Shown here: piece by piece, positions 8,811-42,009 of the stretch
Position numbering within the stretch: the first letter of the stretch is position 1
Layout: each line of letters begins with the position of its first letter
Origin: Thermoplasmatota archaeon
GTDB lineage: Archaea; Thermoplasmatota; Thermoplasmata; Halarchaeoplasmatales; Halarchaeoplasmataceae
NCBI GenBank assembly: GCA_018334755.1
Contig: JAGXLI010000010.1
Span: forward strand, 1 to 43,152
Reading direction: 5' to 3'
Length of the DNA stretch: 43,152 bases
Made by a program: the position numbers and the translations under genes
The notes under the pieces: generated by a model
What the model was told of the DNA's origin: nothing
Seen by the model: the letters and a program-made list of their open reading frames with translations, nothing else
The model's database searches: none

Positions 8811-8976
8811 CGAGCTTTATATATTGACCAATATCTAAAATATTTTTCTGTTCGAGCAACCTTGTTTATGAGACCGTTAAGCTGATTTTTCATGGATTTT
8901 GTTTGAAAAATCCCAAAATCTTTAAGTAAAGCTTAAGGACATATATAACACCATGAGGATAGAAGGCTAACTTCTG

Positions 8977-11900
8977 GTGAAGAGAATGAATGTTACCAAA
9001 AAGGGGAGATATTTAGATCCGGCCGATGTTGTTCCGGTCATTCCTTTGATACTTATAGCATTTTTTCTGATCCTCTCCGTGTGGGCCCCGTTCATAGCCA
9101 ATGGAGGGATCGCTGAGACAAAATCATTCTTTTCAAGGGAAGACGATTTTTCTCAAGCCGAACCGAACGAGGATCTCAAAACGACGACGGAATGGGAGCA
9201 GTGGACTAAAACTGATTTTGAGAAGGGAGATACCCATAATCTAGACCTAGAATCCACGCCCGGTGAAGTCAGACTTGAGACGGATACGTTCCAGATAGGG
9301 GCCGCCGAGTCTCCGGAGAAGGACAGCAGAGGAGGATATTATTACTGGGGAAGCGGCGGCACTTACCTTGGATGTCGAGATGATTTCCGAGCCGATAGAG
9401 GCGGAAGGATAAGGACATTCAGGGCTGCAGCCGGCGATCCCGCCTCCGCGTTCAAGCTTAAGGTGCTTAGACCAGAAAATCCGGAAAGTGTAAGCCCGGG
9501 GCAGGATGCGGAATTTTCTGCGGCTCAGACCGAGTACTTTGATCCAAATACTGAAGCGGTGACCACGTGGGATAATCTAGATATCCCGATAGAAAAGGAT
9601 GACCGGATGGGTATCTATCCGCTAGGGGACCTCGCCGCAGTCGCTTTGACCGGTCAAAATGGTTACTGGAAATATGATGGAGAGATAACTAGTACATCTC
9701 AATTCATGACCCACGACTCCGAAGATTCTCCCATCACCACCATTGAAGCTATAGTCGAGACCAACAGGGACAGCGGTATCTTGAATTCGAGTGTCCACGA
9801 CTGTGGAGAACATATGTACAACTGGAGCACCATAAGTTGGGATGCAAATGTTCCTTCTGGCTCTTCTCTGACTATCGAAACTCGGAGTTCTCCTGACGGG
9901 AGCAGTTGGAGCACGTGGGAAGAGGCGACGAACGGGGATGTGGTCCCGAGTCCCGTCAATAGGTACATACAATATAAAGCCAGTTTTACATCACAGACCG
10001 GTAAGGAAACCCCAGTGCTGAACAGTATCAAGGTAAAGTACGAGGTGGACAAGGATCCGCCCCAGATAAACCACCAGTCTATCGATGAATGGCAGAAGGA
10101 CGGTCCTTACACGATCAGCGCCGAGGTCAAAGACGGGGGAAGCGGATTGGCTGAAAATCCGACCGTATATTACAGTACAGATCAGGGATATACCTGGGAT
10201 ACTCGTCCCCTCAATCACACTCAGGCCGATATGTATGAAGGGTATATACCGGACTTTTCTCATGATACGGACGTGATGTATTACATAGAAGCGGAGAATA
10301 CCGCGGGGATCACAGAAACTTCGCCGGATGAAGGTCATTATCATCAGTTCAGCGTTGATAAGGACCCTCCTACGACAGAGCCAGTGCTCTCCGGCGAAGA
10401 AGGCGAGAACGGATGGTTCCAGGGGCAAGTAGAGATAGAATTACAGGCATCGGATACTCATTCCGGCGTGGACACGACATCCTATCAACTCGACGGTGGA
10501 GATTGGAATACATATTCTGGTCCGTTCACTTTGGAGGAAGCGGGTGAGCACGAATTGAGGTATTCTTCGACCGATAACGTGGGTAATTCTGAATTAGCGG
10601 GATCTACCCAGATAAATATCGATGATGCCTCTCCCGATCTGACCTTAGATAGACCCGATCCATCTGGAGATAACGGTTGGTATCTGGATGGGATACAAGT
10701 GGAGATCACGGCGGAAGATCAGGTTTCCGGCGTTGATTCAGTGGAATATAGGATCAACGAAACTTCCTGGGAGACTTATTCAAGTCCCGTCGGTTTAGAT
10801 GAATCGGGCGTCTATAGTCTAGAGTATCGTTCTTTCGACACGGCGGGGAACGAGAACACGAGCTCTGTCGAGATCAAGATCGATAGGGAAGATCCTACTG
10901 TATCGACCACAATATCGGGGACTGAAGGAGAAAATGGATGGTACCTGAGTGAAACTGAAGTTGAACTCATCGGTACCGATAACGTTTCCGGTATCTCTCA
11001 TAACGAGTATAGGGAAAATGAAAGCAGCGGATGGAAAGAGTATGACGGGCCTATCGTATTGGAAGATGGCCGCCATTCGATAGAGTATAAAAGCGTGAAC
11101 GAAGCCGGAAGGGAAAGCGAGATCGAAGAGAAGGAGGTAAAAGTGGATACTGGTCTCCCCACCATCGAGTACGACGTAGAGCCTCCTGAGGGGGAAGGTT
11201 GGTCTACCACACCACCTACGGTAGATATGAGCACGGTGGATGAAGTTTCAGGTCTCAGCCGAATACGTTATAGGATAAAGCAGGATGGAGACTGGGTAAG
11301 AGAAGAAAAGCTCGATGATCTAGACAATATCTCTGATAGAGATGTGAACTTTGACTTGGATCTCTCGGGCAACCTGCAGGTGGAGTTGTTTGCCGAGGAC
11401 GTCGCGGGTAATAACTTTACTACGAACTTCGAGTATCCCGTCGATCTTGAAAAACCGACGATACCGGATGCGCCCTCTGTGTCGGATACGGTCTGGAGGA
11501 ACGATATGACGATAGCTACGCAGATCGATGAAGATCACAGCGGGGTCGATAAAGTCACGCTGCATTATTCCACTGGAGACAGTTGGAAGAAGAAGGAGAT
11601 GGCAAGAGATGGAGGGGAATACAAAGCGACCATCCCTGGTGAGGACGTCGGATTCGGCGACGTTGAATATTATATCTCAGTACAAGACACGGCCGGAAAC
11701 TCTTTTGAAAGCGAAAGACGGACGGGTGAAGTCGGCATAAATTGGATATATCTCATCCCGATCCCTATAGCTGTCGTCTTGATAGGTCTCTTGGTCTATT
11801 GGAGAAGGAAGCGAGAAGAACAGGAACAATTGATACCGATGAAAGAATCTAAAATATCGAAGATAAAGAAAGGGAAAGAAGATAAGTTGGAGGAGATAAA

Positions 11901-12819
11901 GGACGAGGGGGACAAATCTACTGCGGCCCCGGTCGGGTTATCCTCCGAAGATAGTGGAGAACGATGTGATATATGTGGAAGCGCTATCGACTCCCAGAAC
12001 CTTCTAACCTGTTCGTGCGATAACCACTATCACGACGACTGCCTGAGGATGGAGGGTAACTGCATGAGCTGCGGAAAAGATTATGCTACGGTCAGCTTGT
12101 TCTCAGAGGAGGCTGAAGAGGAAAGCTCCTCCGAGGGAACTGAAGACGAAACCGGCCTATCAGAAACTGGGATCGAAGAACCCCAAGATGTAGAAGAAAG
12201 TACTGAAACAAAGAAAGGGCCTGAAGGAGTCGAAGTATGGGCGGATGAAAGAGGCGCAGAGTCGACAGAGGAAGTTCAGAAGAAAGTCAAAAAGGCGAGG
12301 AAAGTAGATGAAACCGAGGACCGATCAGAGGAGCAGTCAGAAGAAGATGTCTCTTTAGAGGAGGAGGTAGAAGAGATGATGGAAGATGAGGAGCCAAAAG
12401 AAGAGACACCTCCAGAGGATAGTCTAACAGAGGAAGAAACCCCACCTCCCTCGCCGGAAGAGACCTCTACAGAGGAAGAAATGGATGAAGAAGCTCCCGT
12501 AGAAGAAAGTACGCCGGAAGAGACTCCCACAGAGGAAGAAACCCCACCTCCCTCGCCGGAAGAGACCTCTACAGAGGAAGAAATGGATGAAGAACCTCCC
12601 ACAGAAGAAAGTACGTCGGAAGAGACTCCTACAGAGGAAGAAACCCCGCCCCCCTCTCCGGAAGAATCGACGGAGAGTGAAGAGGAGACTCCTGATGAAG
12701 AAAAAGAAGATGTAGAAGGGGATGCTATAGAATGTCCGCTCTGCGGGAACGAAAATGAAGCCGGGTCTGAAAAATGCTGGGCTTGCAGGGCGGACCTAAC
12801 AGAAGATGAAGAAGGATAG
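8977..12819 (+). CDS. Large membrane-anchored surface protein: Ig/OmpL47-like repeats, TM helix, intracellular C4HC3 RING/PHD-like cluster, low-complexity acidic tail, zinc ribbon
   Basis: N-terminal hydrophobic VVPVIPLILIAFFLILSVWAPF; repeats with DNVGN/DTAGN signatures; TM WIYLIPIPIAVVLIGLLVYWRRKR; CDICG...CSCDNHYHDDCL...CMSCG; CPLCGNENEAGSEKCWAC. Confidence 0.8.
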   Translation: MKRMNVTKKGRYLDPADVVPVIPLILIAFFLILSVWAPFIANGGIAETKSFFSREDDFSQAEPNEDLKTTTEWEQWTKTDFEKGDTHNLDLESTPGEVRLETDTFQIGAAESPEKDSRGGYYYWGSGGTYLGCRDDFRADRGGRIRTFRAAAGDPASAFKLKVLRPENPESVSPGQDAEFSAAQTEYFDPNTEAVTTWDNLDIPIEKDDRMGIYPLGDLAAVALTGQNGYWKYDGEITSTSQFMTHDSEDSPITTIEAIVETNRDSGILNSSVHDCGEHMYNWSTISWDANVPSGSSLTIETRSSPDGSSWSTWEEATNGDVVPSPVNRYIQYKASFTSQTGKETPVLNSIKVKYEVDKDPPQINHQSIDEWQKDGPYTISAEVKDGGSGLAENPTVYYSTDQGYTWDTRPLNHTQADMYEGYIPDFSHDTDVMYYIEAENTAGITETSPDEGHYHQFSVDKDPPTTEPVLSGEEGENGWFQGQVEIELQASDTHSGVDTTSYQLDGGDWNTYSGPFTLEEAGEHELRYSSTDNVGNSELAGSTQINIDDASPDLTLDRPDPSGDNGWYLDGIQVEITAEDQVSGVDSVEYRINETSWETYSSPVGLDESGVYSLEYRSFDTAGNENTSSVEIKIDREDPTVSTTISGTEGENGWYLSETEVELIGTDNVSGISHNEYRENESSGWKEYDGPIVLEDGRHSIEYKSVNEAGRESEIEEKEVKVDTGLPTIEYDVEPPEGEGWSTTPPTVDMSTVDEVSGLSRIRYRIKQDGDWVREEKLDDLDNISDRDVNFDLDLSGNLQVELFAEDVAGNNFTTNFEYPVDLEKPTIPDAPSVSDTVWRNDMTIATQIDEDHSGVDKVTLHYSTGDSWKKKEMARDGGEYKATIPGEDVGFGDVEYYISVQDTAGNSFESERRTGEVGINWIYLIPIPIAVVLIGLLVYWRRKREEQEQLIPMKESKISKIKKGKEDKLEEIKDEGDKSTAAPVGLSSEDSGERCDICGSAIDSQNLLTCSCDNHYHDDCLRMEGNCMSCGKDYATVSLFSEEAEEESSSEGTEDETGLSETGIEEPQDVEESTETKKGPEGVEVWADERGAESTEEVQKKVKKARKVDETEDRSEEQSEEDVSLEEEVEEMMEDEEPKEETPPEDSLTEEETPPPSPEETSTEEEMDEEAPVEESTPEETPTEEETPPPSPEETSTEEEMDEEPPTEESTSEETPTEEETPPPSPEESTESEEETPDEEKEDVEGDAIECPLCGNENEAGSEKCWACRADLTEDEEG
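10357..11449 (+). repeat. Tandem beta-sandwich (Ig/OmpL47-like) protein repeats, about four copies of roughly 90 aa
   Basis: Recurrent D..PPT...ENGWY...VE...D.VSGV...YR...W..Y..P..L...G.H.L.Y.S.D.AGN pattern. Confidence 0.7.
12427..12666 (+). repeat. In-frame 102-bp tandem repeat (34 aa, TEEETPPPSPEETSTEEEMDEE-PVEESTPEETP), about 2.4 copies
   Basis: Copies start at 12427, 12529 and 12631, nearly identical at nucleotide level. Confidence 0.9.
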
Positions 12820-12830
12820 GATGAAGAGAT

Positions 12831-13337
12831 ATGAAAGATCTAAGACGTTCTGAAGAAGCGGTGATGGACTATCCCTTTCGCCTTCTTATCATCTCTATCG
12901 TATTAGCTATAGCTATACCTTCTATGCTCTCAGCGCTCTCCTATTATCGTACCCAAAGTGCCGAGGAACAGCTTTCTCAGGAGGTCGATCAGATCGCCTC
13001 AGCGGTAGAGAGCGTTTATATCCAGGGGATAAATGCGAGCACCGTGGTAGATCTGGACCTGCCCGAGGAGACCGAGTATGTGGAGATAGGCGCCCCCCTT
13101 TCGGACTCGATCGATTGCAGGGCCATCTATCACAAGATACAGGATCAATCTGAAAGTTCTATCCTGGTCAAACACGGTAGAGAAGGTATACCTATGACCT
13201 CCCAGGATAATATCACTGTGACTCTCACGAGTTCCACTAAAAGGATATCGGTCGTGAAAAGACCTGTGAACTTCGATATCGACGACGACGGAACCCATGT
13301 AAACGATTACTATGTAGAGATAAAAAAGCTGAGGTGA
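12831..13337 (+). CDS. Pilin-like/secreted small protein with N-terminal hydrophobic helix
   Basis: SEEAVMDYPFRLLIISIVLAIAIPSMLSALSYY; co-directional 11 bp after the large surface-protein gene. Confidence 0.6.
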   Translation: MKDLRRSEEAVMDYPFRLLIISIVLAIAIPSMLSALSYYRTQSAEEQLSQEVDQIASAVESVYIQGINASTVVDLDLPEETEYVEIGAPLSDSIDCRAIYHKIQDQSESSILVKHGREGIPMTSQDNITVTLTSSTKRISVVKRPVNFDIDDDGTHVNDYYVEIKKLR

Positions 13338-13341
13338 CGAG

Positions 13342-13848
13342 ATGTTAGACTGGGCTCTATCTAAGATCATAATCTCCATATTCACCGTGGGTCTCATCAT
13401 CTTCTCTATCTTCATTTTCTCAAGTAAAAGAGCCGCTATCGAAGAGGATAAATTGAGGAATATATCTAACCGGATCTCTTCAAAGGTGAATGAACTTTCA
13501 AATACCTATTCCAATTCAAGCGTATACTTTACATTCAGCGAGAACGTATCTGCCGTGACGCTTCCGGGAGATATCGATGGCGAAAATTATGAGATCAGGT
13601 TCTCCGATTCTTGGCTGACGTTAGAAACGGAAAGGAAAGTAGCCTCTTCCGATTTCACCGAAGAGATCCACCTGTGGGATCCCTCCAATGTAAACTATAC
13701 TACGAACGAGAGCGAGTTGGAGAGATCTGATGATCAAAACACATCTCTCAAGATCGTTTCTGGAGAAGAAAGGTTCAAGGTAGTGCGTTGTGAATTGATA
13801 GTCAGCGGTGAGATCCAGTATCACACGTTCCTCTACAAGTGGAACTGA
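13342..13848 (+). CDS. Pilin-like/secreted small protein with N-terminal hydrophobic helix
   Basis: ALSKIIISIFTVGLIIFSIFIFSS N-terminus; 4-bp gap to upstream gene. Confidence 0.6.
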   Translation: MLDWALSKIIISIFTVGLIIFSIFIFSSKRAAIEEDKLRNISNRISSKVNELSNTYSNSSVYFTFSENVSAVTLPGDIDGENYEIRFSDSWLTLETERKVASSDFTEEIHLWDPSNVNYTTNESELERSDDQNTSLKIVSGEERFKVVRCELIVSGEIQYHTFLYKWN

Positions 13849-13869
13849 CTTGCATCAAAGAGGATAAGA

Positions 13870-16800
13870 TCAATTTTCAGGTTCACAGTATACCTTTCCG
13901 AAGCGGATATACTTATTTTTGTCCGCTCTACCGACTTCCCCGATGAAATAGTCTCCTTTCCTACCGACCCCGATAGAGGGTTCCGATGAGGCCCACCACG
14001 CTAAATTTCCTTTGGTGTAATTTCCTTCAGCGCCTAGGACCTCGAACGAGCGATTGTTCAGCCCGTCTTTATCTATCCGGGCGAAGATGGATGGGGCGGG
14101 ATTTGAAGCACCTAACTCTCTACCGATATCGCGGATCCTGTTGATGAGCATACGAGAAAAACTTTTGATCCCTCTTTTCTCGGTTTGATTGGTCCAGTAG
14201 ATGTAAGTTCGATTCATATTCCCGTCGATATCAAGGTAGAAGCCGACGTTCTCGAGGTCTTTTAGAACATCTGAATCATCGTTCATCTCTCTCAACAATC
14301 TTTTACTAAAGCGGATGAAACCTTCGTAAGTATCGTTCCTTTCCTCCACCGAACTTTCGATCCATCTATGTACTTTATCGGGTAATTCACCTTCGGTGGT
14401 TCTCAGTCCTACATCTATAGAATAGTTACCTCCAAGATTTGGAAGTGAGATGTTGGAGAAGATGCTGGATTTTATGGATCTCAAACCAGCTTCGTCTAAT
14501 GAGATAGTCTTTTGAGGATACCGCAGATCGAAACTGTAATTATCGAGGGTAGTGTTCTGATCAGCGTGGATGACGACCCTTTCGTCTTTGGACGGATCCA
14601 CTTCGATACTCAGATCGATGCTTCCATGTCTCTTGACCTCGTAAACATAATCATCTTGACCCAGGTCGAAAGATATCCTGGTGTTGTTGCTTTGGAATTC
14701 AGTTTTTAAAGGACTGTTCTCCACGTTATAGTCAAGATCGAAACCCATATACGGATATTCTAACCTATCCATGTTCCTATCCGCGAGCATCCGTCTATGG
14801 TCGTCTATGAACTCAAAATATGAGGTATCATTATAGGTCTCATAGGATACCTCATCGATCGTCTTCATAAACTCGCTCAGGTTTTCAGCCGAATGGAGAG
14901 GTTTAGAAACGGTAGAATGAGCGCATCCTCTGAGATGAGTCCTTACAGAATCGGTAGTGACACTCGACCTAGCCAGAACGTCTGTCATGGCCCGCGATAG
15001 ATTCATCATCGGTCTGGAGATGTAGATCGCATCTTCTTTCAGAGGTCTATCGGATTGGATATCTTCTTCATCTATCAGGTTGAAGTACCTTCGGGTCATC
15101 CGGTAATCAACGTCGTTTTCAAGCCAGTCCGATTCCAGAGGTTGGGCGGTATGAAGCGGCAGCGTGAAATTCTGCTTCAGATCGAGCGTGCCGTTGTACC
15201 ACGTAGATCTGTGAACGCCGACGGGTATGTTCCTCCTGTCGGTGGTTGTATTCACCTCTAAAGTACCTTCGATCGAGACGTTCAGGGCGGTCTGGTAAGG
15301 ACTCCACGACATGTTCGTCCTTTCTTCTAGATCTCCCGAATACCTTCCCTGGACGTCGACGAAGTGCTGACCCTTTTCAGGGTAATCTATATCGATAGAA
15401 AGGTTATCGCCTTCGGTAAGATAATCGGAAAATTCCACGGTGAAAGTTTCATTCAGAAGCCTCTGGCGTTTCCTGTCATAGGAGCGGTTCATCCGCCAAT
15501 TGTACCTTGGTTGAGTCATGTTCGTGGCTAAAAATCTCCGTTCTTGGTTCACGTGAGTATTCCTTTTGACGCTTCGAAGGGTCCTGTTAAATTTCTGCTG
15601 CAGCCAGCCGTTCTTCTGAGAGAGATTCAGAAGCATGTTCTCTCTTTCGTTCTGTTCGCCTATCGTGCGGACAGCTACATTCTCTCCGACGAAATCGTAG
15701 AAATTCCCCTGGGTCTGGTGGTCTCCTTCGTAGTTACCCTCGTCTGTGGTTTTATCCATATCATCCATAAGTTTCTGAGAGATCTGGCCTTGGGAAAGAA
15801 GGCCCTGTTCTCCTACGACCCGGTCCGTACCATCTTCGATATCGTTCCACAGTCTATTCCAGATGGCCTGGTCCGTCCAGGTCGATTTCGCGTCGTTCGG
15901 GATCACGGTGTTCCTGTATCTCAGGCATTCCTCACAGGACCAGCACGGTTCTCCGACCGTCGTTTCCCAAGCCTCGTCTTTGAAAGATCTCCGTCTAGGT
16001 ATTGCGATATCTCGGACACGCTCGTTGACGTCCTTCATCGCGTCCTGTCTGAAAGCGAAACTCCCTTCCGAGGAGTCTCCCTCGCTGTGCTGTTCTTCCT
16101 CGGGCGGGTCCGTAGAGAGTGATCCCGGATTCCTGCCCATGTCTTTTACACCGCCGTCGTAGAGGTTGACCACGGCCTCATACCAGAGATCCACCGTTTC
16201 CTTCGTCAGATGATACATGAAGTCGTCATCATGCTCCTTTTTGTATGCTCCTTCGCTCCACCATTCATCCCGCTTATCGAAACCGCTGGCTTTATCTTTG
16301 AATTCTTTTAGGGCCTTGTGGATAGAACCCTCTTCTTCTATCATATGGCCTGTTCCGTTCACCAGCACCGATCTATTATCTTCCGGGTCTATCTCGAAAT
16401 CGGATTTTTTCGTACCTATGGAATCGGCGATATCGCTGCTTATCGTGTCCATGAATCCTTTGTTGGTTTCCTCTTCTATGTCTTTCGAGCGCTGCCTTAC
16501 GCTGCGGTTGATCGTTTGAAGGATGTACTTCAACGTATCAAAATAAGGCGTTCCCTGGTCCTCGTCGTGTTTCGCTATCAACGATTCTTCGACAAGATAA
16601 TATTCGATGGTCCGGTCTCCCACGTTACTGAAGTCAGAATTGAAAGTTAGCTCATAAGGTTCGGGGTCCAGATTATCATTTTCAGGGTCTCCAAGGATGA
16701 GATCTATCGTGTCGGGGACCTCAGATGAACGCATCTCCCATTCTCCCGAGGTGAAGTCATAGGGACCGCGGCTGAAGACCCAGTAGTGACCGCCGACCGG

Positions 16801-18087
16801 TCTTGGCGCTTCGGGATTCTGAACACACGTCCATTCGTAGGGCGACATAGATCCTTCCATCTTCTGGATGGTCGAACTCGAATCCTGAGGATCGAGGGTT
16901 TCAGGTATACCCAGCCATTCCCGATAAGTTTTCAGCCAGGTCCTCACCTGCTCCTCCGCCCAATCTTCACCTTTATCTTCCAGTTCCTGCCAGTTCACTA
17001 CGGGCTCTGAAAGAGTCGGGTCTACGATCTTGTCGCCCCAGAATAACTCGTAAAGATCGAGGACAAAATCTTCTCCGAAGGGATAGATGGCCTGAGACAG
17101 GACTTTTCCCGCGTCGACCTCCTGTTTCTTTATGTTCCGGTGCATCAGGAATAGATCTGCTGCATCGACGGTCCCGTTATCCGCATACCTTTGAAGTTCC
17201 GAGTCGATACCCATCTTTTTGGCTATATCTTCGTCATAATCTCCGTACAACCTCGCGGCTTCCAAGAGCAAAGCGAGATTGACGGCTCTCTCCACGTCTT
17301 CTTCACTCAACAGACTCGTGATATTCCCTTCGTTCTCCCCGTAACCTCCGCTGGCGTTGCCGAACAAAGTTCTCATCTGAGTTATTGAAGAAAGCTGGTA
17401 GCGGATGAGTTTACCGACCTCTCCGAAAGAGCTTTTAGATTCGGATCTGAATTCCCTAAAGCGTGATCTTAAATAGAAAACGGGTGAATACACGTTTTTC
17501 TCGAAATCTTTATGATAAGTGACGTTCTGACCTGAACCTTCGCTGTACACCGACATCTCTATGTTTCCTACAACCCTCCCGTAGAGAGGAGCCTTTCCTT
17601 CCTGGAACTCGCTGATATTGGTTTCAGCCTCCTTTTTCGGTTCCGCTTGGAACGGTTCGATGAACTCCTGTCCGGTGGAGAAAGACTCGTCGGTTTCAAG
17701 CGTAGTCCTCGATTCAGAGACTATTTTGACGGACCAGTTATCGATGTAAACGAGACAGTTTTCAGTATTCAGGGGATACGTTTCGTTTAAGTAGCCTTTC
17801 AGATCTTTTTCTAACTCGGCCTGAAGCGTGAACATCTCCGGGTCTCTATTCTTGGTCAGATTATGTATCCGCTGAAGTGAAAGATGATAAGCACGGGTCG
17901 CTATGTCGTCAAGCGTCTCCCCTGCGGCCGCCGAGGTCTCCTCGGTCGGGGTATAGATAGAGATGTCTCTCTCGGATTCCTCGATATCTCCTACCAGAGC
18001 AAAAGTGATGCCTGAGAGGACCAACAGAACGACTCCCACGAGAGCAAAGGGGACTTTTCCTTGATCATCTAGGTCTTTTCGGATCAA
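13870..18087 (-). CDS. Giant exoprotein (1405 aa) with N-terminal anchor, resembling haloarchaeal pilus-cluster DUF7286-type proteins
   Basis: N-terminus GKVPFALVGVVLLVLSGITFALVGD; Asn/Thr-rich extracellular-type sequence with many N-x-S/T sequons. Confidence 0.6.
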   Translation of the reverse strand: MIRKDLDDQGKVPFALVGVVLLVLSGITFALVGDIEESERDISIYTPTEETSAAAGETLDDIATRAYHLSLQRIHNLTKNRDPEMFTLQAELEKDLKGYLNETYPLNTENCLVYIDNWSVKIVSESRTTLETDESFSTGQEFIEPFQAEPKKEAETNISEFQEGKAPLYGRVVGNIEMSVYSEGSGQNVTYHKDFEKNVYSPVFYLRSRFREFRSESKSSFGEVGKLIRYQLSSITQMRTLFGNASGGYGENEGNITSLLSEEDVERAVNLALLLEAARLYGDYDEDIAKKMGIDSELQRYADNGTVDAADLFLMHRNIKKQEVDAGKVLSQAIYPFGEDFVLDLYELFWGDKIVDPTLSEPVVNWQELEDKGEDWAEEQVRTWLKTYREWLGIPETLDPQDSSSTIQKMEGSMSPYEWTCVQNPEAPRPVGGHYWVFSRGPYDFTSGEWEMRSSEVPDTIDLILGDPENDNLDPEPYELTFNSDFSNVGDRTIEYYLVEESLIAKHDEDQGTPYFDTLKYILQTINRSVRQRSKDIEEETNKGFMDTISSDIADSIGTKKSDFEIDPEDNRSVLVNGTGHMIEEEGSIHKALKEFKDKASGFDKRDEWWSEGAYKKEHDDDFMYHLTKETVDLWYEAVVNLYDGGVKDMGRNPGSLSTDPPEEEQHSEGDSSEGSFAFRQDAMKDVNERVRDIAIPRRRSFKDEAWETTVGEPCWSCEECLRYRNTVIPNDAKSTWTDQAIWNRLWNDIEDGTDRVVGEQGLLSQGQISQKLMDDMDKTTDEGNYEGDHQTQGNFYDFVGENVAVRTIGEQNERENMLLNLSQKNGWLQQKFNRTLRSVKRNTHVNQERRFLATNMTQPRYNWRMNRSYDRKRQRLLNETFTVEFSDYLTEGDNLSIDIDYPEKGQHFVDVQGRYSGDLEERTNMSWSPYQTALNVSIEGTLEVNTTTDRRNIPVGVHRSTWYNGTLDLKQNFTLPLHTAQPLESDWLENDVDYRMTRRYFNLIDEEDIQSDRPLKEDAIYISRPMMNLSRAMTDVLARSSVTTDSVRTHLRGCAHSTVSKPLHSAENLSEFMKTIDEVSYETYNDTSYFEFIDDHRRMLADRNMDRLEYPYMGFDLDYNVENSPLKTEFQSNNTRISFDLGQDDYVYEVKRHGSIDLSIEVDPSKDERVVIHADQNTTLDNYSFDLRYPQKTISLDEAGLRSIKSSIFSNISLPNLGGNYSIDVGLRTTEGELPDKVHRWIESSVEERNDTYEGFIRFSKRLLREMNDDSDVLKDLENVGFYLDIDGNMNRTYIYWTNQTEKRGIKSFSRMLINRIRDIGRELGASNPAPSIFARIDKDGLNNRSFEVLGAEGNYTKGNLAWWASSEPSIGVGRKGDYFIGEVGRADKNKYIRFGKVYCEPEN

Positions 18088-18154
18088 ATCCTACTGCCTC
18101 TCTTCATATAAATTAAGCTCTTGGAGATTATTTATAGATTATGCTAATTAAGGA

Positions 18155-18685
18155 TCAGATCGTCCAGACCTTGAGATTTGCAGTATAAGTTTCGTTCTTC
18201 TCCGGTGTGTGAAGGTCCTGGGTGACGGAGATCACTTCGTCTCCTTCTATCCCGTGATTACTGAAGCTCAGATATGCATCACCGGAGGACCAGGCGGTGA
18301 AATTATAGTAATACTGCGGATATGTCAAATTCTGCAGGGTCTCGTTGAGAGGTCTCTCTATCCCCTTCTCTAAACTCTCATTTTCGACGGGTGTTTGTCC
18401 TCGAAGATATAGGTCTTCAACGACAAGTTCCGTTACCGTTTTATCGTCCAGGTGGATAGTCTCGTTATCATGTTCGTAAGATGTGTGATTGAGCGTCGAA
18501 TGTAGATAGGTCTCCAGAGTCGTTTCACCGTAGAGTCGTTTCATCTCCTCGCTCTCGGGTGAGCTTTGGGGTGTGGAAGCGAAGGCGAGTATCAAAGATG
18601 CGATCATCGCTATCGCGAAGAAGATCAGGGCATCTAGTAAGCTGGACTGACCGGAGTCTGAATATTTTATCCTCTTCATTCCCAC
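18155..18685 (-). CDS. Pilin-like protein (haloarchaeal DUF728x-like)
   Basis: DSGQSSLLDALIFFAIAMIASLILAFAS N-terminus followed by secreted-type sequence. Confidence 0.55.
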   Translation of the reverse strand: MGMKRIKYSDSGQSSLLDALIFFAIAMIASLILAFASTPQSSPESEEMKRLYGETTLETYLHSTLNHTSYEHDNETIHLDDKTVTELVVEDLYLRGQTPVENESLEKGIERPLNETLQNLTYPQYYYNFTAWSSGDAYLSFSNHGIEGDEVISVTQDLHTPEKNETYTANLKVWTI

Positions 18686-19191
18686 ACCTCCACTCTGAGT
18701 CTTGCGGGATGTATCTCATCGGAATCTACCACTATATTTACCGATAGTAATATCACTTTTCTACCCTTTTCATAACTCTCTTCAGTGAAGTTGGAGTCGG
18801 GTTCTTTCCTCCAAGTTTTATTGTATCTTACGGAGTAATTGCTTACGTCTGTCAGCGTTACCTTGTAATAAAAATCAGGATTGTTGAAAGAACGGGTCAG
18901 GTTCTCAGAATTGAGCCCCTCGACTTTGCTGGCATCGAATTGGCCTATCCTGTCCTTATACAGGAGTCGTTCGGAAGCTCTGACCCCCTCAGCGAATTCT
19001 ATAGCCTCTCTTTCGAATTCTGAATGTGTTGAACTCTCATCGTGCCTTTCTATGGCGGAGTACATGCTGGCCAAAAATATGAGAGTACCCACTACGACGA
19101 TCAACAGGGCAGGGACGTCCTCGTAAAAACCTATAACGCCTTCGTCGTCGATCTCTCTTCTCATCTCCGACGCAACTGATATAGAAATCAT
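18676..19191 (-). CDS. Pilin-like protein (haloarchaeal DUF728x-like)
   Basis: DVPALLIVVVGTLIFLASMYSAIE N-terminal TM; overlaps the next gene by 10 bp. Confidence 0.55.
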   Translation of the reverse strand: MISISVASEMRREIDDEGVIGFYEDVPALLIVVVGTLIFLASMYSAIERHDESSTHSEFEREAIEFAEGVRASERLLYKDRIGQFDASKVEGLNSENLTRSFNNPDFYYKVTLTDVSNYSVRYNKTWRKEPDSNFTEESYEKGRKVILLSVNIVVDSDEIHPARLRVEVWE

Positions 19192-19272
19192 ATTTAATAA
19201 AAGTATTTCTTTTCAACCTAGGTCTTAGAGAGGATCAAAGAGATGGGAGGAGATCCCATCCTCTTGAAGGTC

Positions 19273-21993
19273 CTAGGCCCTATCTTTTCCAGCGTAAACT
19301 TGGGTTTCTAGGTTTCCCTGATCCCTTCTAGTTCCGCCCACCGATATCTCATTCTCCAGTATTTCAAAGTAGCTTTCCAGGTTCTCGGATGTCAGATCTA
19401 GATTGGCGTATACGATGACATCTCCGGGGTAACTTTCTCTCATAGCGGATGACACGGCTTCCCACATATCCTCTATGTTAATCGGATCTTTACCGATAGA
19501 ATGGCTTCCCTTCTGAAGTAGGGACAAAATTTCTCCGGATTCTCTCCCGCGCCTGAGATCGTCTTTTTCGGTAAATATCAGTTTATCGAAACCCTCGGCG
19601 GCTGTCTTTCCGTTCTCTACGAGACTTTCATCGCTCCTGTCTCCGAGGCCGGTATAGACCAGAGTCTTGCGGTTCTCTCCTGCCAGGTTTTCCGCAAAGT
19701 CACTTAAATTTTTCAGTCCGTCGGAATTATGGGCGTAATCTATCACTACATTTCTTCCCTCAACATCGAACACGTTCAATCTACCCGGCGTCGTCTCCTC
19801 GTTCGTCTGGAAATCCATCAAAGCGGTTTTGAACCTATCAACTTTCAGGCCGCTCGCATACGCGGCGCTCATCGCCGCTAGGGTGTTCTCTACAAGCATC
19901 TTTACTCCTCCTCTCAGATATGGTAGGTCCTTCACATTTGCTATCTCTTTCCTCTTTTCATCCATTAGATAGGCCACCAACTCGTTCCCTTCGAGGACGA
20001 AGGCCTCGCCGCCCTGGTCGATATGCTCTTCGATCAGCTGATTCTTTTCCACTCCGAAAAGGATCGGCGTGCCTCTCGCTTTTTCTATCAATCTTTCGGC
20101 GTAGTCGTCGTTCCCGTTTATGACACAGGAACCTTCTTCGTCGGTGACTTCCATGAGGAGAGATTTGATCCAGAATATATCATCTCGGTCTTCGACTCCA
20201 TCTAGACCTATATGATCCTCGCGGATATTCAGGACTACGCCGACGTCCGCTTTATCGAAACCTAGACCTCTTTTGACCATGCCGCCTCTCGCCGTTTCTA
20301 GAACGGCATAATCCACCTGAGGATCTTGAAGGACCACGTTGGCGCTCCACGGACCGGTCGTGTCTCCGTCCGCGACCTTCAAGTCGTTCGACCAGATGCC
20401 TCCGGTGACTGCAAGACCGGTGTGATGTCCTTGGTTTCTTCCCAGACACTCGACCATCCTGGAGGTCGTGGTTTTACCATTGGTACCTGTTATAGCTACC
20501 AGAGGTATCCTTCCCTCTCCCGAGGGATAGAGATGGTCTATGATCTTCTCACCGACGGGCTGAGGTTCTCCCGCCGAGGGTGAGATGTGCATCCTCAACC
20601 CGGGGCTGGAATTCACCTCTATGATCCCCCAATTTATCTCTTCTACGGGCCGAGAGATATCCTCGGCGATTATATCTACACCCATCAGGTCCAGCCCGAT
20701 GATCCTGCTGGTCCTCTCCAGGATCCGCTTCAGTCCTTCATCGATATCTTCGGTATGATCTATCGCGGTCCCTCCGGTGCTTATATTGGCGGTCCGCCTC
20801 AACCACACGTTTTCTCCGTTCTTCGGAACGTGGTCAAGGGTCAAACCCTGCTGCTCCAGATTTATCTTCACTTCCTCGTCGATAGAAAGTTTCGTTAGTA
20901 CGGATTCGTGGTCTTCTCCTCTTTTTGGATCCTTGTTGGCGAGTTCCACCAGTTCCTTGATCGTAGAGGAGCCGTCACCGACCACGTGGGCCGGTATCCT
21001 TTTGGCCACCGCTACGACCTCGTGGTTCACGATAAGGGCCCTGTAATCCTCTCCCTTCAGATATTTTTCTACGAGGATGTACGAGGCATGTTCTTTTGCA
21101 ACGGAAAAAGCCTCTGTGAGTTCGTCCGGATTTTTTAGATTTACAAGTACGCCGTTTCCATGATTTCCGCTGACGGGTTTTATGACCACCGGATAGCCTA
21201 TATGCTCGGCTATATCCAGGGCCTCTTTCATCGACGTAGCCACTTCTCCCCTCGGGACGGGAAGACCAAGATCGGATAGAAGATCTTTACAGGTGTCCTT
21301 TTCCTGCCCGATCTCAGAGCCTATCAGGGAAGTTTCCGAGGTCTCCGGTCCCCAGATCAACTTCCTGTTCTTGCCCCAGCCCAGCGAGAAAAGGCTGTAT
21401 TCCTCGTCTATCCTCTTGTAAGGTATGTCTTTTTTCTCTGCGGCCTTCAGTATCGCGGAAGTACTGGGTCCTATCTTCTCTTTCAGGAACACCTCCCTGA
21501 TCTCCTCTAGACCGTCCTCGAAAAAGTTTTTCAAGTCCATCTCGCCCGCCAATAATCTATTCACTAGTTCTATAGAAAGCTCTAGAGCCGAGGAAGCAAC
21601 AGACGCATATTCATAACCCATAACTATCTTGTATACACTTCCTTCCTCTCTCCTGCTCTTTCCGAAGGATAGGTCGGCTCCCACGGTGTTCTGGATAGAT
21701 ATAGCTATATGCTCTATGATATGGGCCGGATAAGTCCCCTCTTCTAACCTCTCTACGAAGCCCCCCTTGTAACCTTTGGAGCAGGAATGTTCTTTCAACT
21801 CCGGTAAGAGTTCCACGACTTTTTCAGCAAAATCTTTATCGGAGGGTGTCTCCACCAAGTCTCCTAGATCCACGTAAGCTTCCATGACGGGGAAGAGAGC
21901 GTGGACGTTCGGTCCCTCCAGAAATCTCTTCCTGTTCAATTCTATCTTCTGTTCGATTTCTTCTCCGATGTTTTTTCTATCATATATTTTCAT
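19273..21993 (-). CDS. cphA: Cyanophycin synthetase-like protein (ATP-grasp + Mur ligase)
   Basis: EHSCSKGYKGGFVERL, VIKPVSGNHGNGV ATP-grasp, VNSSPGLRMHISPSAGEPQPV, GTNGKTTTSRMVE P-loop, LETARGGMVKRGLGFDKADVGVVLNIREDHIG; likely start MKIYDRKN at 21993 (ORF open to 22074). Confidence 0.88.
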   Translation of the reverse strand: MKIYDRKNIGEEIEQKIELNRKRFLEGPNVHALFPVMEAYVDLGDLVETPSDKDFAEKVVELLPELKEHSCSKGYKGGFVERLEEGTYPAHIIEHIAISIQNTVGADLSFGKSRREEGSVYKIVMGYEYASVASSALELSIELVNRLLAGEMDLKNFFEDGLEEIREVFLKEKIGPSTSAILKAAEKKDIPYKRIDEEYSLFSLGWGKNRKLIWGPETSETSLIGSEIGQEKDTCKDLLSDLGLPVPRGEVATSMKEALDIAEHIGYPVVIKPVSGNHGNGVLVNLKNPDELTEAFSVAKEHASYILVEKYLKGEDYRALIVNHEVVAVAKRIPAHVVGDGSSTIKELVELANKDPKRGEDHESVLTKLSIDEEVKINLEQQGLTLDHVPKNGENVWLRRTANISTGGTAIDHTEDIDEGLKRILERTSRIIGLDLMGVDIIAEDISRPVEEINWGIIEVNSSPGLRMHISPSAGEPQPVGEKIIDHLYPSGEGRIPLVAITGTNGKTTTSRMVECLGRNQGHHTGLAVTGGIWSNDLKVADGDTTGPWSANVVLQDPQVDYAVLETARGGMVKRGLGFDKADVGVVLNIREDHIGLDGVEDRDDIFWIKSLLMEVTDEEGSCVINGNDDYAERLIEKARGTPILFGVEKNQLIEEHIDQGGEAFVLEGNELVAYLMDEKRKEIANVKDLPYLRGGVKMLVENTLAAMSAAYASGLKVDRFKTALMDFQTNEETTPGRLNVFDVEGRNVVIDYAHNSDGLKNLSDFAENLAGENRKTLVYTGLGDRSDESLVENGKTAAEGFDKLIFTEKDDLRRGRESGEILSLLQKGSHSIGKDPINIEDMWEAVSSAMRESYPGDVIVYANLDLTSENLESYFEILENEISVGGTRRDQGNLETQVYAGKDRA

Positions 21994-22249
21994 ACTATCA
22001 ACTCCGTTAATTTTTTGAGCCTGAGAAAGATCGGGGATCTTGAAATCACTCACAGCGTCAAACCTCAAATTCAATAACTGATGCAGTATAGATCACCAAT
22101 AGATCTCATGATTCTCCCTAACTCACTCTATGGCTAAGGAAAATGCTCCATATATAGAAACGGATCTGAAGTATATAAACCTATCTATTTTTTCTTCTGA
22201 ATATTGGAGGGCAATCTTTATAATAAATCTCATCACTTTTCAAAGCGTG

Positions 22250-23224
22250 ATGACTAGTCTATTCATAGGTAGATTTCAGCCGTTCCACAAAGGCCATCTA
22301 AAAGCGATAGAGCAGATACTCGAGGACAGGGATTCACTCATGATCGGGGTCGGCAGCGCCCAGAGAAAAAGGAAGGAGAACGATCCATTATCCGGCGGCG
22401 AGAGGATCACGATGATAAAGAGGGTCCTTGAGAGCCGGGATCTTAAAAACATAGAGGTCTATCCCGTTCCGGATATAGAGTGCCATCCTGCCTGGCCTTA
22501 TTACGTTGAAGCGATACTGCCCCGGTTCGACAGGGTCTATGGAAATTCGGAAGTCGTGCTGAACCTGTTCGAAAAGATAGGTCACGAAACCAGAAAACTG
22601 GAGCAGATAAATAGAGATGAATATTCCGGCACCGAGATCAGGAAGAGGATACGGGAGGGAAGGAAATGGAAAGGATTGGTGCCCGAAGAAGTTGCTGATT
22701 ATCTAGAGGAGATAGACATGAAAGAGAGATCGAAACCCATAATCGAGGTAAAGTCTGAAACTGAAAAGGATATAGCACATCTCCTTACCAAGAACGACAA
22801 GACGATCGCGACGGCGGAGTCCTGTACCGGCGGACTCGTCTCTAACAGGCTTACCAACGTCCCAGGATCTTCAGATTATTTTATCGCCGGTCTGGTAACT
22901 TACAGCAATAGAGCGAAGACGGAACTGTTGAACGTGGACGAAAAGATGATCGACAAGAAAGGGGCGGTGAGTTCAGAAGTCGCAGAGCAGATGGCAGAAG
23001 GCGTTAGAAAAGACCGCAATACGGATATAGGTTTATCGACCACGGGTATAGCGGGCCCCGGCGGCGGGAGCGAGGAAAAACCCGTCGGGACGGTCTATAT
23101 AGGCATATCACGAGAAGAAAAAACAGAAAATATATTATTCCAATTCAGCGGGGAGCGGGAAAAGGTAAAGGAGCAGGCCTCGGAAAAAGCCCTAAAGAGT
23201 CTCATAGATCGTCTAGAAGACTAA
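22250..23224 (+). CDS. NMN adenylyltransferase fused to CinA C-terminal (PncC, NMN amidohydrolase) domain
   Basis: FIGRFQPFHKGHL, YSGTEIRKRI (NMNAT); TIATAESCTGGLVSNRLTNVPGSSDYFIAGLVTYSN, TTGIAGPGGGSEEKPVGTVYI (CinA/PncC); single uninterrupted frame; ORF track starts at 22130 but MTSLFIGRF at 22250 is more likely. Confidence 0.88.
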   Translation: MTSLFIGRFQPFHKGHLKAIEQILEDRDSLMIGVGSAQRKRKENDPLSGGERITMIKRVLESRDLKNIEVYPVPDIECHPAWPYYVEAILPRFDRVYGNSEVVLNLFEKIGHETRKLEQINRDEYSGTEIRKRIREGRKWKGLVPEEVADYLEEIDMKERSKPIIEVKSETEKDIAHLLTKNDKTIATAESCTGGLVSNRLTNVPGSSDYFIAGLVTYSNRAKTELLNVDEKMIDKKGAVSSEVAEQMAEGVRKDRNTDIGLSTTGIAGPGGGSEEKPVGTVYIGISREEKTENILFQFSGEREKVKEQASEKALKSLIDRLED

Positions 23225-23586
23225 GTGCTCTCCTTGATAGTTTCCACTGATTTATTTATCTCCTCGAAGAGAGTACCCAGCTTTCGGGAAGCATCGACCA
23301 CTACTGAGAGCAGCAGATCCTCACCCGCGCTAGTTATGATCACCTTTCCCTCTTCCGAGTCCACTATTATCCTCCTCACGCTTCCTCGACCCAGTTCAGA
23401 ATTGGCGCTGTTCGAGGCTCCGATGATGGTGGCACACATTATGCCAAAAGTGTCTTCGTGGACGTTTCTCGGTAGGTCCGATTCGATTATTCCACCTTCC
23501 TTGTCTACTACTGCCGAACCGTAGACTCCTTTTCTTTTCAGGTTTTCAAGTATATCTCTAAATTCATCTGCCATATTATCACTCAC
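23221..23586 (-). CDS. Roadblock/LC7 domain protein
   Basis: ILENLKRKGVYGSAVVDKEGGIIESDLP...RRIIVDSEEGKVIITSAGEDLLLSVVVDASRKLGTL. Confidence 0.82.
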   Translation of the reverse strand: MSDNMADEFRDILENLKRKGVYGSAVVDKEGGIIESDLPRNVHEDTFGIMCATIIGASNSANSELGRGSVRRIIVDSEEGKVIITSAGEDLLLSVVVDASRKLGTLFEEINKSVETIKEST

Positions 23587-23990
23587 AGTTCTCTTTCTTT
23601 TATCTCAAATTCGCAGTGCTTGTTACCCAAGCTTTCACATTTGACTTCTTCCACTTCTATGATCTTCGGAGTGGAGTTTTCGTGAATGCTACATATGATA
23701 CCTCTCAAGATGTGGCACGAAGGGTCATCGAATGATGGGTCAGCTTCTATGCTTCCCTTCGCGATAGCTAAATTTTCTTCCAACACCATCTCCTGGGTCC
23801 ACCCTCTCCCTTCGATAAGGTTAGCTCCCTTCTCAAGATGATCGTCTTCATCTGATATCTTGTCAGCTATCTCCTCCCCTATACCCTTACCCCACAGATA
23901 GAATAGTACCTCCCATGCCTCTGCCATCAGATTTTGATAGGTGGTGGCAGTCCTCTTGATACCTTCCTCAGATAACTTGACAAATCTCAT
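23583..23990 (-). CDS. V4R-domain protein
   Basis: IICSIHENSTPKIIEVEEVKCESLGNKHCEFEI typical of V4R C-terminal cysteine region; overlaps roadblock gene by 4 bp. Confidence 0.7.
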   Translation of the reverse strand: MRFVKLSEEGIKRTATTYQNLMAEAWEVLFYLWGKGIGEEIADKISDEDDHLEKGANLIEGRGWTQEMVLEENLAIAKGSIEADPSFDDPSCHILRGIICSIHENSTPKIIEVEEVKCESLGNKHCEFEIKEREL

Positions 23991-24066
23991 CTTTTTCTCC
24001 TAATATAAAACCCTCTATTTAATTTTGAGGTAAGCATGCTAGTAAAATTCTCGGAGAGTTCGTCGA

Positions 24067-24672
24067 TCACCTGCACTCGGGACAGAGGAGTTCACCGTTC
24101 TCTTCTACTAGGCCGTCGGAATATACCCCGCAGCTCTCACAGTATCCCGAGATCTCCCTTTTCCCGGGTTCCTTGTACTTTTCGATCTCCCCTGATCTTT
24201 GGATCCTATTGTATTCCCTCGTGATATCTATGAGCGTGGGTGCTATCTCTAGTATGTCGTTCTCGGTGACTATACCGATCATATCGTCCTTTTCATCTCT
24301 CACCGGCAGTCTTCTAATCCCTAAGTTTGCCATCAATTCAGCGGCTTCCTTGATCGATCTTTTTCCTTCGATGGTCTCGACCGGGGTCGACATCACTTCC
24401 TCCACGTCGACTTCTTCCGGGTCAAGGTGTTTAGACGTCACCTCTTTCACGATGTCCATCTCCGTGATAACTCCCGTAAGATCTTTTTCTCTGTCCACGA
24501 CGACGAGGCTGCCTATATCTGCTTCCTTCATGAGCTGTGCCGCGCCTTTAACGCTCTCATCTATACCGATCACTATCGGATTGCGGGACATCACGTCCTG
24601 AACCGGTAGTTGGGAACTCTTCGATCCGTTCTGAGTTATCATACCTTCCGCCTTCCTAAATAGGTATCTCAT
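24067..24672 (-). CDS. Tandem CBS-domain protein with C-terminal zinc ribbon
   Basis: VQDVMSRNPIVIGIDESVKGAAQLMKEADIGSLVVVD, VMSTPVETIEGKRSIKEAAELMANLGIRRLPVRD; CESCGVYSD...LLCPECR. Confidence 0.9.
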   Translation of the reverse strand: MRYLFRKAEGMITQNGSKSSQLPVQDVMSRNPIVIGIDESVKGAAQLMKEADIGSLVVVDREKDLTGVITEMDIVKEVTSKHLDPEEVDVEEVMSTPVETIEGKRSIKEAAELMANLGIRRLPVRDEKDDMIGIVTENDILEIAPTLIDITREYNRIQRSGEIEKYKEPGKREISGYCESCGVYSDGLVEENGELLCPECR

Positions 24673-24751
24673 TTCACCTATATTAAATGTTTTGAGGATA
24701 GAAGAAGGTCCGCGTCCAAAATATTTATAGTCCCTTCAGGATTCTCCCACT

Positions 24752-26281
24752 GTGATGATGAAGTTCGATCTTGAAGCGACGTTGATCTTCAGCGACTCCG
24801 TCGAGGAAGCAGTGAAAGATATTGAAGAAGCGATAAGAGAGTCGAACGAGACCCTTCTGAAGAAAGGGGTACCCGAATCCGTAGAGGACGGCGGAGCTGA
24901 TGTACGCGGTTTTTCCGTAGAGAAAGATACGTTGACTCTCAACATCGATTCAGATAGGTATGTGAGAGCCCATGACGCCCTCTTAAGGCTGAAGAAGAGG
25001 TTGAACAAGGAGCTGGGTCCTGAACACCACGTGGGCGTTAGAGAGTTATCGATAGACGGGTACGCCATCGAACTCGACCTGGATAGAGCCCCGAAGGATC
25101 CAGAAAAAATCACTTTGCCTTATGTCGAGGAAGTCAGCTTTGACGAAAAGAGATGTGTTTTGAAGATATCTGAACTGGGTGAGAAGGAGTTAAAAGAAAA
25201 TTACGTCGACAGGATCATAGAGAGGTTGAAAGAAAAGGTGGATGCCCAGTATTATGAAGGAAAGGAGGAGATGTGGGAGCTGCTGTGGGGATCCGATGAA
25301 AAAGAGATGGCCTGGGAAAAAGATCCGACGGAGGAGATGCTGGAAAGAGATTGGATCAAGAGAGGCCCTACCAAGGGAAAATGGTTCTACCGGCCGGAGA
25401 TGGCCAAGGTCCTCAAGACTATAGAAAAGATCGCGGTCAAAGAAGTCTTAAAACCTCTAGGGTTCCAAGAGATCGTAGAGTCCATGATGGTACCTTTCGA
25501 CGTCTGGATAGAAACGGGCCACATGGAGGGTATACCGAACGAGGCCTATTACGTGACCGAACCCAAGACCAGGAATCCGGGCGAGTGGGAGGAGATCATA
25601 GACGAGATAAAGATAGCTCGGGATGTCCCCGATGAAAAGCTCGAAGATATGATCGAGACTCCCAAAGCCGGAATATGTTACGCCCAATGTCCGACGATCT
25701 ACTGGTCTTTCCGGAATGAGACCATATCTGACGACAGTCTGCCAGTTTTAGTATACGAAAGGACCGTTCCCAGCGCCAGGTACGAGTCCGGGGGTAGACA
25801 CGGCCTCGAACGGGTGGACGAATTCCACAGGATAGAGCCGGTCTACATAGGGACAAAAGAACAGCTTCTCGAGCTGAAGGAAAAATTGATAGAAAGGTAC
25901 AAGCATGTGTTCGAAGAAGTGCTTGACATAGAGTGGAGGATGGCGAAAGTCGAACCCTTCTATCTACAGCAGTCAGGCGGATCAGAAAAGGAAGAGGAGC
26001 TCGATCTCGGCACCGTCGATTTCGAGGCCTATCTTCCTTATAGAGGAACGAGAGAAGAGAGCGAATGGCTCGAATTTGGAAATTTGAGTGTTTTCAGGAA
26101 GTATACTGAAAGCTTCAACATCAAATCTCAATCTGATACATTACTCTCCGGCTGCACCGGTATAGGCCTGGAGAGATGGGCGATGGCGTTCCTCGGTCAA
26201 AAAGGCCTGGATCGAGAGAACTGGCCCGAGAAGTTCGATGATTACTTCGGAGATATGCCGGACGGATTTGAACTTCTGTGA
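24752..26281 (+). CDS. serS: Seryl-tRNA synthetase, archaeal/methanogen (type 2) form
   Basis: MKFDLEATLIFSDSVEEAVKDIEEAI, AGICYAQCPTIYWSF, ARYESGGRHGLERVDEFHRIEPVYIGTKEQ, GCTGIGLERW; start may be at 24758. Confidence 0.88.
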   Translation: MMMKFDLEATLIFSDSVEEAVKDIEEAIRESNETLLKKGVPESVEDGGADVRGFSVEKDTLTLNIDSDRYVRAHDALLRLKKRLNKELGPEHHVGVRELSIDGYAIELDLDRAPKDPEKITLPYVEEVSFDEKRCVLKISELGEKELKENYVDRIIERLKEKVDAQYYEGKEEMWELLWGSDEKEMAWEKDPTEEMLERDWIKRGPTKGKWFYRPEMAKVLKTIEKIAVKEVLKPLGFQEIVESMMVPFDVWIETGHMEGIPNEAYYVTEPKTRNPGEWEEIIDEIKIARDVPDEKLEDMIETPKAGICYAQCPTIYWSFRNETISDDSLPVLVYERTVPSARYESGGRHGLERVDEFHRIEPVYIGTKEQLLELKEKLIERYKHVFEEVLDIEWRMAKVEPFYLQQSGGSEKEEELDLGTVDFEAYLPYRGTREESEWLEFGNLSVFRKYTESFNIKSQSDTLLSGCTGIGLERWAMAFLGQKGLDRENWPEKFDDYFGDMPDGFELL

Positions 26282-40172: not shown

Positions 40173-40173
40173 G

Positions 40174-42009
40174 TTAGAAACTCTCCCTGAACCACTCCTT
40201 CCAGTCTTTGACCAGCTCTTGATAATCGACTTCGTTATGCTCTTCAGTCTGTCTTTCTAACAGATGCCAGAACCTGTTATTGTACTCCGGCACGTGGTCC
40301 GCTTCGAGCAGTTCTAACCTTCCATCTCTCTTGGCGCGCTCGACCACCGTCGATTTTATCTTGGCCCTTGCCATGATATTTTCTTCTGCCTCCTCTATGC
40401 TCATATCCCAATCATCAGCGATATCAGAGATGAGCTCTGAATTCGCTCCGAAGACGTCCGTCCTCTTCAATGTGTCCTCTTCCGACGAATAAGACATGAG
40501 GTCATGGAACAGTTCCTCCGTTTCATCCTCTAAGCCGAGCTGCACGTCAGTACTAGAAGGTATCGCGTCCTTGTTCACCTCGGATATCTTCGTGGTTTTT
40601 CTGACCAGGCGGTGTAACCCTTTCGGTCGCCTGTAGTTCATCATGACGACCCCGTCGGTCGCTGCGAAGGATTTTGGCGGGATGTCTAGGTCGAAGACCA
40701 CCCTTTCGTAGACCGCCTTCGGCGAATCCGCATGTATGGTGCCCATCACGGCGCTTCCGGCCGTGCCGGCCCTCATGGCCTCGTAGAGCGTCTGTGCCTC
40801 TTTTCCTCTGACCTCTCCCATGACGATCGCCGATTCTCCAAGGCGCAGCGAGACGCGCAGCGATTCTTCGGCGCCCATCTCGCCCAGGCCGCCGACACCG
40901 CTGGAGCGTATATGCATGGACTGGGCCTTGTATCCCTCTTCTTTCAATGCCGAACAGGGAAGTTCTAAAGTGTCCTCTATGGTGACTATACGCTGGCTGG
41001 GCGGAAATTCGAACATCAGCGCGCCGATCAGTGAAGTCTTACCGGCGCTCCTCGGACCCGCGACCATCATGGTCGCGTTACCATCCACGAGAAATGAGAG
41101 TAAGCCGGCGGACAGTGAAGATAAGCTCCTCTGATATATCAATCTCAGAAGCGTCCAGGGTTTGGGTGAATGACGCCTGAAAGTTATGGAAACGCCTTCC
41201 GGTGATAGGGGCCTACCGATCACGGTGGCTCTCGTCTTGTGCTCCTCCAAACTGCATTCCAGGACCGGTCTGGCCTCGGAGAACGCCCTGCCGCTCTCGT
41301 ACTGCAGTCGTGATATGATAGAATCGGCGCTCTCTTTCGTCAGGCCGATGTTCGTGACGCACTTGCTCGGGATGGAATCTTCAAGATCCGTGGAAGAGAT
41401 TATCGAGTAGACACGGCTCTCCTCCACGGGCGCGTCGATATAAACGTCGGTTATCATCGGGTCTCTCAGTAGAGTTTCCACTATCCCGAGTCCTACGGTA
41501 TATCTGGAAAGTATGTTAGAGAGCATACGGACCCTTGCGAACTGCTCCGTTCTCGTATTACCTAAATTGACGCCTTCTATATTCGCGTATTTGTATATCA
41601 AACGGCTGCCCTGTTTCCTCGCGTATTCCCTCACGAACGCGGGTCGATGGGATTCCTCCTTACCCGGGTAGTGATCCAGTATCTCATCCCTGGCGAGGGT
41701 GATTATCTTCTTCTGCTCCGGCGGTAAGGTGTACTCGAACGGCGTGACGTGATAGAGGGTCTCGGTCTCTCCCGGTAAACGGTAAAGTGTAACTTTAGAT
41801 TCCTCTACCGTGTACTGCCTGACCTTTTCCGCACCGGGAGGCGGTTCGAGGACTATCCAGGATGACGAAAATTTTGGTTTGACTCTATTATAGGCCTCGA
41901 ATATCTGTTTGAAATTTTCCTTCAGATCGTGTTCGGTCTCGGTCTCCTCTATGGAGGTATCCTGCAGAGAGGTTCCAGTTTCCATATATCTACATCTCCT
42001 TTTATCCAT
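40174..42009 (-). CDS. Type II/IV secretion/pilus assembly ATPase
   Basis: Walker A MVAGPRSAGKTSLIGAL, IVTIEDTLELP, GESAIVMGEVRGKEAQTLYEAMRAG, GTIHADSP. Confidence 0.93.
   Translation of the reverse strand: MDKRRCRYMETGTSLQDTSIEETETEHDLKENFKQIFEAYNRVKPKFSSSWIVLEPPPGAEKVRQYTVEESKVTLYRLPGETETLYHVTPFEYTLPPEQKKIITLARDEILDHYPGKEESHRPAFVREYARKQGSRLIYKYANIEGVNLGNTRTEQFARVRMLSNILSRYTVGLGIVETLLRDPMITDVYIDAPVEESRVYSIISSTDLEDSIPSKCVTNIGLTKESADSIISRLQYESGRAFSEARPVLECSLEEHKTRATVIGRPLSPEGVSITFRRHSPKPWTLLRLIYQRSLSSLSAGLLSFLVDGNATMMVAGPRSAGKTSLIGALMFEFPPSQRIVTIEDTLELPCSALKEEGYKAQSMHIRSSGVGGLGEMGAEESLRVSLRLGESAIVMGEVRGKEAQTLYEAMRAGTAGSAVMGTIHADSPKAVYERVVFDLDIPPKSFAATDGVVMMNYRRPKGLHRLVRKTTKISEVNKDAIPSSTDVQLGLEDETEELFHDLMSYSSEEDTLKRTDVFGANSELISDIADDWDMSIEEAEENIMARAKIKSTVVERAKRDGRLELLEADHVPEYNNRFWHLLERQTEEHNEVDYQELVKDWKEWFRESF

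Follow-up and report, generated by a model that had tools for sequence, protein, structure and literature searches.

A predicted cyanophycin synthetase gene, cphA, was located on the minus strand of the window, the whole analysed stretch of 43,152 nucleotides from a Thermoplasmatota archaeon. Positions 19273-21993, where the sequence-only reading had placed a cyanophycin synthetase-like enzyme, proved to be exactly one open reading frame running from an ATG at 21993 to the stop at 19273; the plus-strand frame across the same positions contains many stops. An alternative TTG start lies upstream at 22074 and would extend the product to 933 aa. Sequence shared with the nearest relative sets in at the ATG. 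A pseudogene was ruled out by the lack of internal stops and by the strong conservation. The features of the locus are as follows.

8971..26278, no strand: block of about 17 kb whose gene order is kept in Thermoplasmata archaeon B1Sed10_20 (PUNG01000152.1), by synteny
19192..19272, no strand: gap of 81 bp downstream of cphA, by synteny the site of a convergent cyanophycinase in B1Sed10_20
19273..21993, minus strand: cphA, putative cyanophycin synthetase (CphA1-like, archaeal type I), 906 aa
21475..21993, minus strand: N domain (PF18921) with the Cx19HxxEH metallopeptidase-like primer site (C71, H91, E94, H95), boundary approximate
20509..21474, minus strand: G domain (ATP-grasp, aspartate ligation), from residue mapping to Te/SuCphA1, boundaries approximate
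19273..20508, minus strand: M domain (Mur-ligase-like, side-chain amino-acid ligation), from residue mapping and alignment
20464..20487, minus strand: P-loop GTNGKTTT of the M domain (residues 503-510), from translation and alignment

Directly past the cphA stop, an inverted repeat, GATGGGA ... TCCCATC (19241-19263), is possibly a terminator. On the other side, divergent from cphA, the plus-strand gene at 22130-23224 apparently encodes a NadM-like NMN adenylyltransferase fused to a CinA/PncC-type NMN amidohydrolase domain. It is followed on the minus strand (23221-23990) by a Roadblock/LC7 protein adjoining a short V4R protein, which resembles the C-terminal half of MsvR without the DNA-binding part. 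Farther away, positions 8977-18087 hold an Ig-like (Big_13) protein of 1280 aa and then DUF7266- and DUF7286-like proteins, the latter of 1405 aa; these genes are conserved in B1Sed10_20. A TadA-like secretion or pilus ATPase and a weakly ArlJ-like protein (38154-42009, minus strand) may belong to a pilus system.

By every sequence criterion tested, the window protein is a CphA1. It scored 994.9 bits against the NCBIfam equivalog TIGR02068 (cut-off 850), its Pfam domains are PF18921 (N, 110 bits), ATP-grasp/RimK and Mur ligase M and C, and in the PDB it matched Synechocystis CphA1 (SuCphA1, 7LG5) with an E value of 6e-192. The N, ATP-grasp and Mur-ligase architecture of CphA1, found by Pfam, NCBIfam and AF2/Foldseek alike, bears out the earlier claim of a full CphA architecture with GTNGKTTT. 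An AlphaFold2 model (pLDDT 85.1, pTM 0.78) superposed on TeCphA1 and SuCphA1 complexes with TM 0.83-0.85 (7WAE 0.85), and on CphA2 and MurE with far lower values. Based on residue roles taken from PMC9427784 and PMC9262961, 21 of the 21 catalytic or substrate-contact positions checked in the three active sites were identical. In the N domain, C71, H91, E94 and H95 correspond to C59, H79, E82 and H83 of SuCphA1, and H69 and R82 are likewise kept. In the G domain, E227, H278, R318, R332, N403, S405 and R467 correspond to E215, H267, R309, R323, N394, S396 and R458 of Te/SuCphA1. In the M domain, K507, T508, T530, E566, D593, H594, R738 and H755 are kept, the CphA1 reference residues being K499, T500, T522, E558, D585, H586, R731 and H748 (PMC9427784, PMC9262961). 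Two supporting positions are changed, SuCphA1 E87 to Ser and F692, which stacks on adenine, to Met. The sequence-only reading had named, as grounds for rejection, a phylogenetic position outside CphA together with lost active-site residues; this was tested and ruled out. The primer-generating site Cx19HxxEH occurs in 83% of CphA1 at nr70 (PMC9262961), and its presence predicts an enzyme that would make its own primers.

The comparison with CphA1 and CphA2 that had been proposed places the protein with CphA1, which it resembles in N-G-M architecture, tested catalytic residues, primer motif and fold; it differs from 7LG5 and 7WAE in its archaeal host, in sequence (38-40% identity), and in its changed M-lid recognition loop and adenine-stacking Phe. 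With CphA2 (7TA5, 8FXH) it has G-domain homology in common, but CphA2 is without the M-domain P-loop, the M-lid and the N-domain motif (PMC9427784, PMC9262961), all of which the window protein has, so that identity with CphA2 was ruled out.

No cyanophycinase or isoaspartyl dipeptidase is encoded in the window, as the sequence-only reading had stated, but this absence does not extend to the genome, where the suggested search uncovered partner genes. A second CphA is split by a contig break between contigs C105 and C66, whose ends overlap exactly over 127 nt; the joined sequence is one open frame of 892 codons with 49% identity to the window CphA. Contig C66 also carries a cyanophycinase, convergent with this second copy (TIGR02069, 208.5 bits, cut-off 126.6; PDB 7UQV, E 2.6e-48), in which the nucleophile motif GTSAG and DxHFxxRGRxxR are present. 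A full MsvR-type regulator comes after the cyanophycinase. On contig C78, an isoaspartyl-peptidase-family gene was found (PF01112, 201 bits). In alignment, residue 158 of its product falls on residue 1 of beta subunits of known structure; its score of 119 is below the cut-off of 567 for the NCBIfam beta-aspartyl-peptidase equivalog. This protein may split the dipeptides; members of its family also serve other functions, and four CphA-bearing genomes of another family are without such a gene.

In B1Sed10_20, the nearest named relative (73% identity) and a member of the same genus, a cyanophycinase gene (L051:6353-7180) lies tail-to-tail between the ortholog of the window cphA and the next gene. 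Cyanophycinase does not adjoin the window copy, and no relic of it was detected there by tblastn. The tail-to-tail cphA-cphB pair recurs in no fewer than six further genomes of the window's family; in family f52 and in other classes the pair is mostly co-directional, cphB-cphA. For the window protein, the partner cyanophycinase is convergent or elsewhere, in contrast to the cphB-cphA operon of known CphA1 systems. Among 400 genomes sampled from the class, CphA was present in 17, cyanophycinase in 17 and both in 15 (Fisher p 3e-23, kinship ignored). Nearly all of the cyanophycinases have the motif DxHFxxRGRxxR.

A tree of 38 rows, in which the bacteria are thinly sampled through PDB and plasmid records only, resolved two archaeal CphA clades. 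A scan of database genome contigs with the window protein as single query had given one locus only, so the bacterial rows were limited to those records. Type I, which includes the window protein, comprises 14 rows with support 100/100; type II, also of 14 rows at 100/100, is sister to two cyanobacterial enzymes at 98/95. A single archaeal origin was neither shown nor rejected by the AU test (p 0.10 for a set of 22 rows and 0.06 for the set of 38). Type II enzymes (Thermoplasmatota G029, G036, G095, G301 and others) have about 34-39% identity to the window CphA, keep the CphA1 residues and commonly adjoin cyanophycinase, co-directionally in most. Several family members carry one CphA of each type. 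Three type I copies next to cyanophycinase (in G297_C89, G366_C47 and G315_C3; loci L109:3408-6041, L114:2722-5397 and L111:2369-5008) are without the HxxEH primer motif of the N domain, and each of their genomes holds another CphA that keeps it. This arrangement fits the published finding that the N domain of one CphA can provide primers to another enzyme (PMC9262961). A search of phages for CphA gave ATP-grasp or Mur-ligase matches only, none of full length.

The choice of the side-chain amino acid is bound up with a loop of the M domain and with a missing gene. At the position of the MurE DNPR motif, the window protein reads TEKDDLRRGR and SuCphA1 KEDDDKRGR; type I is mostly TExxxxRGR with variants such as TENPRVMRGR, most type II enzymes have DxDPRxR, and bacteria have forms such as EDDDKRGR. 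We take this loop to be the amino-acid reader of CphA, as the presumed equivalent of the MurE recognition motif. Argininosuccinate synthase (argG, TIGR00032) was detected neither in the source genome nor in the 16 other CphA-bearing genomes of the class, type II carriers included, nor above cut-off in any of five CphA-bearing genomes of other classes. In the class sample argG occurs in 252 of 400 genomes, none of the 17 with CphA against 252 of the 383 others (Fisher p 2.5e-8); since the genomes are related, the count suggests more independent cases than there are, but the pattern is repeated across several families. Within the window's family, the two genomes with argG are both without a detected CphA. 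Since argG is found in none of the 17, the arginine in store probably comes from scavenging, or else a different amino acid forms the side chain. The former reading is favoured, because the chain-binding residues and the cyanophycinase motifs are conserved. The different recognition loop and the lack of argG count against a firm assignment of an Asp/Arg composition.

The explanation that accounts best for these observations, and one that we consider likely, is that cphA encodes a working CphA1-type synthetase whose polymer, with the partner enzymes, would be an intracellular store of scavenged amino acids; from the sequences we infer the catalysis, the formation and composition of the polymer and its physiological role. 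The ATP-grasp domain would phosphorylate the C-terminus of the polymer and add aspartate, and the Mur-ligase domain would then phosphorylate the side chain of the added aspartate and form an isopeptide bond to a basic amino acid, most likely arginine. The zinc-peptidase-like N domain would cut the first chains into primers, so that an outside primer would be unneeded. The second CphA would contribute to synthesis, the cyanophycinase convergent with it would release beta-Asp-Arg dipeptides, and the isoaspartyl-peptidase-family enzyme would split them. Because argininosuccinate synthase is missing, the store most likely consists of amino acids scavenged from peptides, and the nitrogen storage suggested in the sequence-only reading is better read in this way. 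The host presumably lives in a soda lake, which we assume from the isolate name of its relative and from the MAG series to which that relative belongs.

The first alternative to be weighed is that cphA came from a bacterium through assembly or binning. The source genome is indeed a fragmented MAG (2.11 Mb, 112 contigs, 93% complete, 2.96% contamination), and misassembly or contamination had been raised at the outset. However, cphA shares the window with archaeal informational genes (FttA, proteasome, archaeal PheS and S2), CphA is present in 12 of the 16 same-family genomes of the class sample, and in the tree the window protein has only archaeal sequences as its nearest neighbours. The synteny of the block 8971..26278 with another MAG, B1Sed10_20, shows that cphA belongs to the archaeal chromosome. 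Synteny and presence across the family rule contamination out; it is excluded in practice, with a negligible chance left to it. The sequence-only reading had also offered a repurposed peptide ligase, and such an enzyme would make no storage polymer and could, for instance, join peptides of the cell surface or of a cofactor. In other archaea, relatives of the Mur ligases help to make pseudomurein and cofactors, pMurC/D/E and others match the window CphA at low scores, and the window gene has no adjoining cyanophycinase. These family scores are far below the cut-offs, and the MurE and pMurE ligases, although they have the M-domain fold in common with the window protein, match it within that domain only. 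The full N-G-M architecture with three conserved active sites argues against a repurposed ligase, as do the co-occurrence and adjacency of cyanophycinase and CphA at genome level. Storage is favoured by the intact catalytic residues, the C66 cyanophycinase, the isoaspartyl-peptidase-family protein and the co-occurrence in 15 of 400 genomes, and a repurposed ligase appears very improbable.

A modified cyanophycin, or another isopeptide polymer whose side chain is not arginine, made by type I CphA and degraded by an adapted cyanophycinase, is unlikely as well but deserves somewhat more weight. It would accord with the distinct 100/100 type I clade, with the loop that differs among type I, type II and bacteria, and with the lack of argG in every CphA-bearing genome tested. 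On the other hand, the G-domain contacts to aspartate and primer are kept, including the equivalents of E215 and R309 at the C-terminal unit of the polymer, the DxHFxxRGRxxR motif is retained in almost all cyanophycinases, arginine could be imported, and the reading role of the loop in CphA is presumed from MurE. A wider proposal, that an uncultured Thermoplasmata family without canonical arginine synthesis banks scavenged amino acids via two old CphA lineages, of which type I may use a side chain other than arginine, is similarly held to be improbable. As for the working CphA1-type synthetase preferred here, an intact cphA, a second copy and breakdown enzymes are all found in the genome, and for this reason the whole archaeal family probably stores amino acids as a cyanophycin-type polymer.

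In the literature consulted, cyanophycin is presented as a bacterial polymer, and the main survey of its genes covered bacterial genomes only (PMC10206079). An archaeal cyanophycinase was reported in Culexarchaeia (PMC9723716), where the passages concerned deal with degradation and describe no synthetase; "cph" is mentioned in a figure legend of PMC7495880. No report of archaeal cyanophycin synthesis was found in the literature searched, which covers subscription journals thinly, and an earlier mention elsewhere is possible. The novelty lies in the domain of life, in an archaeal system that pairs CphA with cyanophycinase, and in the link with the missing argG. With a CphA that is family-wide, chromosomal and catalytically intact, and with a cyanophycinase paired to it, cyanophycin metabolism would reach into archaea as well. 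The missing argG raises the question whether cyanophycin here lets peptide-feeding archaea bank scavenged arginine or whether the polymer carries a different side chain; if a non-arginine side chain of type I were true, it would be a new biopolymer.
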